The notes beneath the pieces were generated by a model that had not been told where the DNA came from, searched no databases, and worked only from the letters and a program-made list of their open reading frames with translations. Source: Sulfurimonas sp. HSL-3221 (GTDB taxonomy: Bacteria > Campylobacterota > Campylobacteria > Campylobacterales > Sulfurimonadaceae). From it: a stretch of 64,000 bases of DNA. The stretch covers positions 1,240,001 to 1,304,000 of the forward strand of contig NZ_CP087998.1 in NCBI RefSeq assembly GCF_021044585.1. Reading direction: 5' to 3'. Position 1 is the stretch's first letter; every line of letters begins with the position of its first letter. This document shows, piece by piece, positions 52,429 through 55,348 of the stretch. The position numbers were made by a program, and so were the translations under genes.

Positions 52429-52441
52429 TACAATCAATCCA
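52429..52441 (+). promoter_or_regulatory. -10 box implying a leaderless transcript for the dehydrogenase operon
   Basis: TACAAT at 52429-52434 is followed after 6 bases by the ATG at 52441; no ribosome-binding sequence lies between. Transcription would begin at or next to the start codon. Confidence 0.45.
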
Positions 52442-52950
52442 TGATAAACCGACGAACCCTCCTGTTCGGGGGCGCGGCGCTGCTGCTTCTGCCTGCCGAA
52501 AGCGGTGCGGAGTACGCCCGTCCCGTCACCATGCACGCAGAACCGTACCAGACCATTGCCACCGTCCATCGCGACCTCTTTCCCGGTGGCGGCGGTGCCC
52601 CTTCGCCCCGGCTGCTCAAAGCGATCGACTACCTCGGCGGCGTTATGCGCGATCCCTACGTCGATGACGATGACAAGCGTTTTCTCACCAACGGCGCGCG
52701 CTGGCTGAACGAACAGGCCCGCAAGGATTACGGCTATGCCTACTACCGGCTCCCCCCGGAACAGCGCCAGCAGGTCCTGCAAAAGGCTTCCGGACTCGTC
52801 TGGGGGGACAACTGGCTCTGGAGCGTGCTCTCCTATCTTTTCGAAGCCCTGCTGAGCGACCCTGTCTACGGCGCGAACACCCACGAGGCAGGGTGGCGCT
52901 GGCTGCGTTACGAACCCGGCTATCCCCGGCCGAAGACACCGTTAATATGA
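52441..52950 (+). CDS. Gluconate 2-dehydrogenase subunit 3-like protein (Tat-exported)
   Basis: A 169-residue small subunit of a GMC-type dehydrogenase. The N terminus MINRRTLLFGGAALLLL has the twin Arg and hydrophobic core of a Tat signal, followed by a helical domain with DNWLWSVLSYLFEALLSDPVYG typical of subunit 3. Such subunits help fold and export the flavoprotein, which has no signal of its own. Its stop overlaps the flavoprotein ATG. Confidence 0.85.
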   Translation: MINRRTLLFGGAALLLLPAESGAEYARPVTMHAEPYQTIATVHRDLFPGGGGAPSPRLLKAIDYLGGVMRDPYVDDDDKRFLTNGARWLNEQARKDYGYAYYRLPPEQRQQVLQKASGLVWGDNWLWSVLSYLFEALLSDPVYGANTHEAGWRWLRYEPGYPRPKTPLI

Positions 52951-54653
52951 AACAATATGATATCTGCATCGTCGGCAGCGGCGCGGGGGCTTCTCCCGTA
53001 GCATACGAACTCAGCCGCGCGGGCTACCGTGTCCTCGTACTGGAGAAGGGGCCCTACCTGACGGAGAAGGATTTTACCAAGGACGAAATCGCCGTCAGCC
53101 GCCGCAGCATCTACACCCCCCGGCTTAGGGAGGAGCAGCATGTCGTGGAGACCTATGACAGTGACGGCAGCATTGATCGCGTGACCGCGGCGGAATCGGG
53201 CTGGAACTTCTGGAACGGCTCCATGGTGGGAGGCTCTTCGAATCTGATGAGCGGCTATTTCCACCGGATGAAACCGGTCGACTTCAGGCTCCGATCCGCC
53301 TTCGGTCCCGTGGCAGGGGCCAACGTCGTCGACTGGCCCATCTCCTATGACGACATGGAACCCTATTTTACGAAAGTCGAACAGCTCGTCGGCGTCTCGG
53401 GCAGGGTCGTCGAGCACCCTTTCCAGGAGCGGCGCTCCACGAAGGATTTCCCCTTCCCGCCGACCTGGGAGCAGCCCATCTCCGGCTGGTTTGATACGGC
53501 CTGCGAAACGCTCGGGTATCACAGCATCCCCACGCCGAGGGCCGTGCTCCCCTTTGACGCCCTGGGGCGCAGCGGCTGTTCCTACTCCAACTTCTGCGGC
53601 AGTTACGGCTGCGCGACGGGCGCCAAAGGCAACGCCCGCGCGGCACTCCTTGAAAAGGCGAAAGCGACGGGGCGGTGCGATATTCTCCCGAACGTGTTTG
53701 TCTACAGACTCGATGCCGACCGGCAGCACGTCACCGCGGCGCACTACTTTGATGCCGACGGCAGACCCCGCACCGTCACGGCAGGCACCTTTGTTGTTGC
53801 CGCCCAGGCGATCGAAAGCGTACGCCTGCTGTTCAATTCGCGCAACGATTTCCACCCCGACGGTCTGGGAAACGCCAACGGCCAGCTGGGCAAGAACCTT
53901 ATCTTTTCCGCCGGCGGCAGCGGGCAGGGGAGGTTCGAGTTTGCCCGCCTGAACGAACGGCAGCGCTTTGAGCTGATGACCCGCGGCGCCTTCGTCAACC
54001 GCTCGTTGCAGGAGTGGTACGTCTATCATCAAAACGGGCGTGCGGTGAAAGGGGGGACGATCGATTTTCTCTTCGAGCATGCCAACCCCGTCAGTCGTGC
54101 CCTGCGCGAGCTTTACGACGACGACGGCAATCTGCTCTGGGGGCGGAAACTGCAGGCGCGGCTTGAGCACGCCTTCACGGCGTCTCGTATCTTCGCCTTT
54201 GAGGTCTTTAATGACTGGATGCCGACGGACAAATGTTTTGTCTCCGTTGACGAAAGCGTGAAAGACAAGTGGGGAGTGCCCGTCGGCAAGATCCGCCTCT
54301 ACGGCCATCCGCAGGATATCGAGGTCGGGAATTACCTGGCCGAAAAAGCGGAGAGTGTCCTGCGGCAGATGGGAGCGGTTGAGATCGAGAGCGACATCTC
54401 CTCGGCCCCGCCGCCGAATCTGGTCGCCGGCGGGTGCCGTTTCGGGACGGACCCCGAACACTCCGTCCTCGACCCCAATTGCAAAATGCACGGCATCGAC
54501 AATCTCTATGTTTCCGATGCGAGCTTTATGCCGACGGGCGGGAGCGTGCCCTACACCTGGACGATCTACGCCAACGCGTTCCGGGTCGCCGATGCCATCA
54601 TGGCCGCGCTCAAAGGCCGGGAAACAGGCTATAATAACGTCAAAGATTCATAA
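52947..54653 (+). CDS. GMC-family FAD dehydrogenase, catalytic subunit
   Basis: A 569-residue flavoprotein. The FAD-binding GSGAGASPVAYELSRAGYRV is at 10-29, GGSSNLMSG at about 95-103, and the C-terminal GMC region YVSDASFMPTGGSVPYTWT. Cys211, Cys217 and Cys222 (C-x5-C-x4-C) closely recall the 3Fe-4S ligands of bacterial FAD-glucose and fructose dehydrogenases. The usual cytochrome c subunit is missing here, and no ready-made His pair is obvious in the active site. It would oxidise a sugar, polyol or alcohol in the periplasm. Cotranscribed with the Tat-carrying small subunit. Confidence 0.86.
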   Translation: MKQYDICIVGSGAGASPVAYELSRAGYRVLVLEKGPYLTEKDFTKDEIAVSRRSIYTPRLREEQHVVETYDSDGSIDRVTAAESGWNFWNGSMVGGSSNLMSGYFHRMKPVDFRLRSAFGPVAGANVVDWPISYDDMEPYFTKVEQLVGVSGRVVEHPFQERRSTKDFPFPPTWEQPISGWFDTACETLGYHSIPTPRAVLPFDALGRSGCSYSNFCGSYGCATGAKGNARAALLEKAKATGRCDILPNVFVYRLDADRQHVTAAHYFDADGRPRTVTAGTFVVAAQAIESVRLLFNSRNDFHPDGLGNANGQLGKNLIFSAGGSGQGRFEFARLNERQRFELMTRGAFVNRSLQEWYVYHQNGRAVKGGTIDFLFEHANPVSRALRELYDDDGNLLWGRKLQARLEHAFTASRIFAFEVFNDWMPTDKCFVSVDESVKDKWGVPVGKIRLYGHPQDIEVGNYLAEKAESVLRQMGAVEIESDISSAPPPNLVAGGCRFGTDPEHSVLDPNCKMHGIDNLYVSDASFMPTGGSVPYTWTIYANAFRVADAIMAALKGRETGYNNVKDS

Positions 54654-54664
54654 GGGGAGCACAC

Positions 54665-55348
54665 GTGGGTAAAAAAGCGGTCTGTATCATGAGCGGCGGA
54701 ATGGATTCGACACTGGCGGCCTATATGCTCCGCGCTCAGGGGTATGAGATCGTTGCGGTCCATTTCAACTACGATCAGCGCACGCAGCAAAAGGAGCTGG
54801 AGAGCTTCCGGGCTATCACGGCGCGCCTCGGCACCGGGCAGACCTACGAGATCGATCTGGACTTTTTCGCCGCCATCGGCGCCTCGGCATTGACGGACAG
54901 AAGCATCGACGTCCCCACGGGCGGCATTGAAGCCGGCGTCCCCGTCACCTACGTACCGTTCCGTAACGGCATCTTTTTGAGCATCGCCGCCGCCATTGCC
55001 GAAAAAGAGGGAGCTTCCGTCATCGGCATTGGTGTCGTCGAGGAGGATTCCAGCGGCTACCCCGACTGCCGCGAGGCCTACATCGAAGCGATGCAGCGTG
55101 CCGTCAATCTCGGCACGAGGGATGAAACGCAGCTCACCATCGCCATGCCGCTGGTGCACCTTAAAAAGGAGCAGATCGTCGCCGAGGCCCTTGCGTACGA
55201 CGTACCGCTCGAACTGACCTGGAGCTGCTACAGTGACGAAGCGGCGGCCTGCGGCGTCTGCGACAGCTGCCGGCTCCGCCTCAAAGGTTTCGAACTGGCC
55301 GGCATACCCGACCCGATTCCCTATCGTGTTAAAAACGGTGTGTCCTAA
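54665..55348 (+). CDS. queC: 7-cyano-7-deazaguanine synthase
   Basis: A 227-residue ATP-dependent enzyme of queuosine synthesis. SGGMDSTLAAYML is the PP-loop; the C-terminal zinc site is CGVCDSC plus the upstream WSCYS Cys. Start is GTG 54665 after GGGGAG. A TATAAT in the tail of the preceding gene (54630-54635) may give it its own promoter. Confidence 0.94.
   Translation: MGKKAVCIMSGGMDSTLAAYMLRAQGYEIVAVHFNYDQRTQQKELESFRAITARLGTGQTYEIDLDFFAAIGASALTDRSIDVPTGGIEAGVPVTYVPFRNGIFLSIAAAIAEKEGASVIGIGVVEEDSSGYPDCREAYIEAMQRAVNLGTRDETQLTIAMPLVHLKKEQIVAEALAYDVPLELTWSCYSDEAAACGVCDSCRLRLKGFELAGIPDPIPYRVKNGVS

Follow-up and report, generated by a model that had tools for sequence, protein, structure and literature searches.

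In the FAD-dependent glucose dehydrogenase of Burkholderia (BcGDH), Cys212, Cys218 and Cys222 are described as the ligands of a 3Fe-4S cluster, which lies approximately 12–13 Å from the N5 atom of FAD (PMC6719666). In Campylobacter jejuni, cj0414 and cj0415 are reported to form a two-component gluconate dehydrogenase, thought to deliver its electrons to a periplasmic cytochrome c (PMC4178425, PMC3156733). Concerning copper-binding peptides, the MNIO enzyme HvfB together with HvfC is described to convert cysteines of HvfA into copper-binding 5-thiooxazoles, the precursor being modified by MNIO prior to secretion, and HvfX of the same system is given as uncharacterized (PMC13419390). According to a survey of HvfA/bufferin-type precursors, the latter are almost wholly tied to MNIO (67 of the 2583 Buf_EGKCG genomes were without it); its text mentions neither GMC nor choline (PMC12452194). 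The open-licence literature yielded no paper in which GMC enzymes are connected to HvfA peptides.

The DNA analyzed here is a stretch of 64,000 nucleotides (the window) from Sulfurimonas sp. HSL-3221, corresponding to positions 1,240,001–1,304,000 of contig NZ_CP087998.1. It includes a two-gene locus for a small subunit 3 (S3) and a GMC-fold flavoprotein, followed by queC (window coordinates):

52441..52950, + strand: subunit 3 (S3), Gluconate_2-dh3 family (PF13618), 169 aa, Tat-type N-terminus MINRRTLLFGGAALLLLPA
52947..54653, + strand: GMC-fold flavoprotein (PF05199 and PF00732), 568 aa, member of a subfamily lacking the catalytic His/Asn pair
54665..55348, + strand: queC, 198 bits (cut-off 150)

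Anatomy of the S3-GMC locus

The S3 and GMC genes overlap on the same strand. S3 scored 33.4 bits against PF13618 (cut-off 23.4), its structure model gave no significant match in Foldseek, and there was no dehydrogenase subunit among the matches listed in its profile search. The N-terminal RR pair was near-invariant among 24 aligned homologues, which supports the Tat-carrying character ascribed to S3 in the preliminary description, although the score with the Pfam TAT model (12.7 bits) stayed under the cut-off of 22.7. That the two-subunit layout would be unusual was not borne out: apart from the Cj0414/Cj0415 precedent, the enzyme was found in 114 of 115 inspected loci and was accompanied by a same-strand S3 gene in 104 of the 114, i.e., the two-subunit layout is the rule in this GMC subfamily. 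The queC gene, encoded on the same strand, begins 11 bases past the GMC stop codon and is also present near S3-GMC in several close relatives, with no evident functional link; considered as a possible component of the system, it was retained merely as a neighbor.

The GMC protein is the sole PF05199 match in the genome (a single 2.52 Mb contig), with scores of 74.7 bits for PF05199 and 35.9 bits for PF00732, each above the cut-off; these two domains and the N-terminal dinucleotide fold place it among the GMC oxidoreductases. Its top sequence matches in PDB were the Burkholderia glucose dehydrogenase and the Gluconobacter fructose dehydrogenase (FDH). An AlphaFold2 model built from 27 sequences (pLDDT 83.3, pTM 0.88) had the BcGDH/FDH fold, matching 8jej with E 1.1e-41 and 6a2u with E 3.9e-36, and superimposed over 505 residues both on 9jqa (VIA Z 36.9, rmsd 3.1) and on 6a2u (VIA Z 36.6, rmsd 3.3).

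The following cysteine motif is located in the flavoprotein gene:

53577..53612, + strand: Cys211-x5-Cys217-x4-Cys222, candidate Fe-S ligands, aligned to BcGDH Cys212/218/222

In the phmmer alignment the three cysteines paired with Cys212, Cys218 and Cys222 of 6a2u, with one additional residue ahead of the third, in agreement with the resemblance to the BcGDH 3Fe-4S ligands noticed at the outset. All three were retained in each of the 133 distinct subfamily members (window protein counted in), so that the motif is not a chance one, and this conservation, combined with the alignment to BcGDH, makes an Fe-S cluster in the GMC protein likely. Residues 218–221 of the triad loop were modeled with pLDDT below 50.

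Absence of the catalytic pair

Two codons mark the sites at which GMC enzymes carry their catalytic residues:

54420..54422, + strand: Leu492, site of the catalytic His (BcGDH His476), by phmmer, MAFFT and hhalign
54549..54551, + strand: Pro535, site of the catalytic Asn (BcGDH Asn519), by phmmer

Position 492 was Leu in 132 of the 133 members and Ile in the remaining one, position 535 was Pro in 131 and Thr in two, and none of the members had either a His or an Asn at these catalytic sites. The catalytic His with a second His or Asn, another mark of the GMC oxidoreductases, is therefore absent from all of these members, the window protein included. The site of the FAD-linking His105 of BcGDH was occupied by Leu, Phe or Val. 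Glu419, Asp423, Trp424, Asn491, Cys512 and Tyr541 were invariant in the 133 members and, therefore, the protein is conserved rather than decaying. Judged from these alignments, the subfamily has lost the alcohol-oxidizing His/Asn pair.

One locus (L195) is presumably of the Cj0414/Cj0415 type, judged from its gene and protein sizes and from its neighbors, FrdB among them. The catalytic His of this type again fell on Leu492 (MAFFT, hhalign), and its Asn aligned to Pro535 or, with a gap, to Val534 (hhalign: Val534, one residue off). The window protein was considered as a Cj0415 ortholog and rejected, having approximately 24% identity to the Cj0415-type protein and belonging to a separate score group in the order-wide search; by sequence comparison, the two are members of different subfamilies.

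Electron acceptor

The preliminary description had pointed to the lack of a multiheme cytochrome in the operon, and there is indeed no cytochrome gene of any kind within it. Genome-wide, 17 profile matches were obtained for PF00034 and 14 for PF13442. Among the ORFs read at these matches only one, a protein of 438 aa that is probably a di-haem peroxidase relative, had three CxxCH motifs. A triheme or subunit-2-like cytochrome was, accordingly, found neither in the operon nor among the PF00034/PF13442 matches of the genome, and the search for it that had been proposed as a check left the initial claim standing.

Gene neighborhoods of the relatives

After S3, two neighbor clusters were the most frequent in the 115 loci, one comprising a DoxX-type protein and the other a small protein that is rich in Cys and carries KCG repeats. 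The former was identified as an HvfX family Cu-binding RiPP maturation protein (NCBIfam, 127 bits, cut-off 80); of four KCG examples, two were above the NCBIfam cut-off as HvfA family metallophores and the other two gave weak matches below it. The gene order KCG-HvfX-GltS-S3-GMC (L049) parallels KCG-MNIO-HvfC-HvfX-GltS (L219, L233), GltS not being present in every cluster of either kind, and both modules were adjacent on one Sulfurimonas contig (L112). The gene order suggests that S3-GMC takes the place of MNIO-HvfC.

Each distinct enzyme was represented by a single locus having a minimum of 3 kb upstream (loci with a shorter upstream part and copies with the same protein were left out). Of these 93 distinct loci, 43 had KCG and/or HvfX within 4 kb of the enzyme (38 with KCG, 31 with HvfX), compared to none of 40 control windows set at arbitrary positions in enzyme-carrying genomes. 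In 35 of the 61 genomes possessing both GMC and HvfX, the two were no more than 2.7 kb apart, and this proximity spanned seven families of the order. In one case a KCG gene adjoined S3-GMC on a plasmid. Mapped on the enzyme tree, the linkage label needed at least 11 changes, at least nine of which were forced by well-supported branches, versus approximately 31 in shuffles.

Several further genes recurred in these neighborhoods. A protein of approximately 582 aa with a conserved glutamate synthase region followed HvfX at L225:4796-6541 (the HSL-3221 genome), L049:5594-7345 (PF01645) and L233:6040-7797, and is common to the MNIO and the S3-GMC clusters. In Gammaproteobacteria, a small thioredoxin-like gene was positioned just upstream of S3-GMC (L142:2288-2779, L155:2870-3364 with PF13899, L164:2877-3374). 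Two Sulfurospirillum-type loci (L083:3821-7401, L205:6535-9995) combine KCG and S3-GMC with an adjacent two-component system and MsrP-type gene; ferric reductase and molybdo-oxidoreductase genes have been reported from a few EGKCG clusters (PMC12452194). Loci L096, L107, L117 and L123 had two different KCG genes each, one of which in L107 and L117 was lipoprotein-like and located near genes resembling copper-transport genes. An HMA-domain gene was present in some of the KCG/HvfX-linked loci, and some genes in linked loci probably encode copper P-type ATPases.

Co-occurrence across genomes

The enzyme was detected in 104 of 398 genomes of the order, HvfX above the curated cut-off in 86 (the only ones counted out of 145 genomes with any HvfX match), MNIO (PF05114) in 38 and KCG in 56. 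Genomes were scored as enzyme-less if they had only fragments or weak GMC matches (E above 1e-60; e.g., G292, G388 and G085) or a protein of the distant Cj0415-type group, whereas the fragments G113, G125 and G259 were scored as enzyme-positive. Without correction for kinship, HvfX or KCG occurred in 76 of 104 genomes with the enzyme, in 24 of 31 with MNIO only and in 10 of 263 with neither, leaving 28 GMC-positive genomes with neither HvfX nor KCG. Of the genomes with HvfX, 55 had the enzyme but no MNIO, 18 had MNIO but not the enzyme, six had both and seven had neither. Kinship was ignored in these tests, save that two comparisons stayed within one genus or one family: in genus g2, KCG or HvfX was present in 16 of 18 GMC-positive versus 0 of 10 GMC-negative genomes, and among the MNIO-less genomes of the window's family, HvfX was present in 21 of the 27 enzyme-positive versus 0 of the 17 enzyme-negative ones.

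KCG precursors without MNIO were frequent in the order (36 of 56 KCG genomes), in contrast to the near-complete association in the published survey (PMC12452194), and 32 of these 36 genomes had the enzyme, often in the same operon. In the MNIO-less Campylobacterota with KCG peptides or HvfX, S3-GMC was present in most of the sampled genomes, often in the MNIO-HvfC slot. A simple mutual exclusion of GMC and MNIO was considered and found no support, either within the order, where seven genomes carry both (Fisher p 0.33), or in genomes mostly outside Campylobacterota. The latter came from a scan of genome contigs, whose best 80 loci were mainly from Sulfurimonas-type Campylobacterota, plus Gammaproteobacteria and Calditrichota; of the 19 genomes behind the loci of mostly the last two groups, 17 had HvfX above the cut-off and 12 had MNIO. 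Since the enzyme often coexists with MNIO in these 19 genomes, it may act there in addition to MNIO instead of replacing it.

The HSL-3221 genome

No MNIO (PF05114) was detected in the genome of HSL-3221 itself, and two HvfX genes were above the cut-off. One of these (130 bits) directly follows an ORF of 84 aa (259703-259957), identified by reading the DNA ahead of HvfX, with a signal-like start, six KC[N/S/G] motifs and the end KGKCGQGKCGG. This HvfA-like ORF matched no NCBIfam model, nor was it picked up by NF050137. Searching the genome with a DNA pattern designed for KCG repeats gave a single match, with a mismatch and distant from HvfX. A distance of 1.03 Mb separates the S3-GMC pair, which adjoins queC, from the HvfA-like ORF and HvfX, and the five nearest rows to the window enzyme on the tree, as well as ten other rows of its branch, were all unlinked to KCG/HvfX. 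The link between S3-GMC and a copper peptide in this genome is, therefore, one of co-occurrence and family membership and not of position.

Proposed role and alternatives

Our preferred reading, to which we give a probability of roughly 0.45, is that S3-GMC is an exported flavo-iron-sulfur enzyme serving HvfA-like copper-binding peptide systems, most likely by oxidizing KCG cysteines. Anatomy, conservation, gene order and co-occurrence were read from sequence; the cofactors, the export as a complex, the substrate, the reaction and the electron acceptor are proposed on that ground. S3 and the GMC protein would form a complex, folded in the cytoplasm together with FAD and, probably, an Fe-S cluster; the Tat signal of S3 would carry the complex to the periplasm, where it would most likely oxidize cysteines of the exported KCG peptide, with electrons passing from peptide Cys to FAD, to the Cys-triad cluster and to a periplasmic cytochrome c. 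A thiol should require less base help than an alcohol, which would fit the loss of the His/Asn pair. The main and strongest objection to a role in peptide oxidation is the place, since MNIO acts before secretion and S3-GMC would act after it. The copper-peptide role is further weakened because the window and its nearest relatives are unlinked to KCG/HvfX and 28 of the 104 GMC-positive genomes have neither. In the 19 genomes mentioned above, 12 of which have MNIO alongside the enzyme, S3-GMC is no simple replacement of MNIO. A more specific proposal, in which S3-GMC would be an MNIO-independent and oxygen-independent periplasmic maturase turning KCG cysteines into copper-binding groups and passing the electrons to respiration, is quite unlikely in our estimation. 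If it were true, low-oxygen bacteria would obtain in this way what others produce by means of O2 and a di-iron enzyme.

The same linkage and co-occurrence data would also suit an enzyme handling periplasmic copper/thiol redox beside the peptides, by oxidation of Cu(I) or thiols or by setting the redox state of the peptide, with no covalent peptide change. The HMA-domain gene and the presumed copper P-type ATPase genes of some linked loci argue for it and it fits the enzymes coexisting with MNIO, but a GMC-fold enzyme acting in this way is not known to us, and we consider this reading somewhat unlikely. That the enzyme oxidizes an organic alcohol or sugar, as initially suggested for this locus, was made less probable by the absence of the catalytic His and Asn and by the neighborhoods of the relatives, which point to copper-binding peptides. 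Still, a conventional dehydrogenase of the periplasm that acts on sugars, polyols or sugar acids and feeds cytochrome c, as reported for Cj0414/Cj0415, would account for the best fold and sequence matches being fructose and glucose dehydrogenases, has its two-subunit precedent in C. jejuni, and would be in line with those GMC-positive genomes in which neither HvfX nor KCG was detected. We regard it as unlikely, given that all 133 members lack the His and Asn, that the remote Cj0415-type protein retains both and that the recurrent neighbors of the relatives are non-sugar genes. Very improbable is an accidental link with KCG/HvfX, through shared gene islands or ecology, of an enzyme with an unrelated function: the linkage label does cluster on the tree, and the branch to which the window enzyme belongs is unlinked, with queC as the adjoining gene, but the changes forced by well-supported branches, the close HvfX genes in seven families, the KCG gene beside the enzyme on a plasmid and the sharp difference within genus g2 all speak against it. 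If the link of S3-GMC with the peptides holds, a widespread flavoenzyme family would obtain a function, and a second route to copper-binding peptides would become directly testable.

Comparison with described systems

The window protein has in common with the BcGDH gamma-alpha complex (6a2u) and the Gluconobacter fructose dehydrogenase the GMC fold, the Cys triad in the same loop and a small subunit 3 co-encoded with the flavoprotein. It differs from them in the spacing of the triad (C-x5-C-x4-C instead of C-x5-C-x3-C), in the non-conservation of BcGDH His476, Asn519 and the FAD-linking His105, and in that no triheme subunit was found in the operon or in the genome. The Cj0414/Cj0415 type, as represented by L195, shares with the window pair the two genes, the Tat-type small subunit and the C-x5-C-x4-C motif, and is distinguished by one more Cys in the motif and by the retained catalytic His/Asn, at the low identity given above. 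MftG, the GMC dehydrogenase of the mycofactocin system, acts with a peptide-derived product, in which it would resemble the proposed S3-GMC; it was the top NCBIfam hit for the window protein, with a score (70 bits) far under the cut-off of 387.

On the peptide side, the HvfABCX (oxazolin)/bufferin systems share with the S3-GMC-linked loci a KCG-repeat precursor with a signal-like start and an HvfX/DoxX protein, and MNIO with HvfC occupies in them the same gene slot that is held by S3-GMC in the GMC-linked loci. The precursor repeats differ as well, being mostly xMKCGA in the GMC-linked and EGKCGE or EGKCGG in the MNIO-linked genes.
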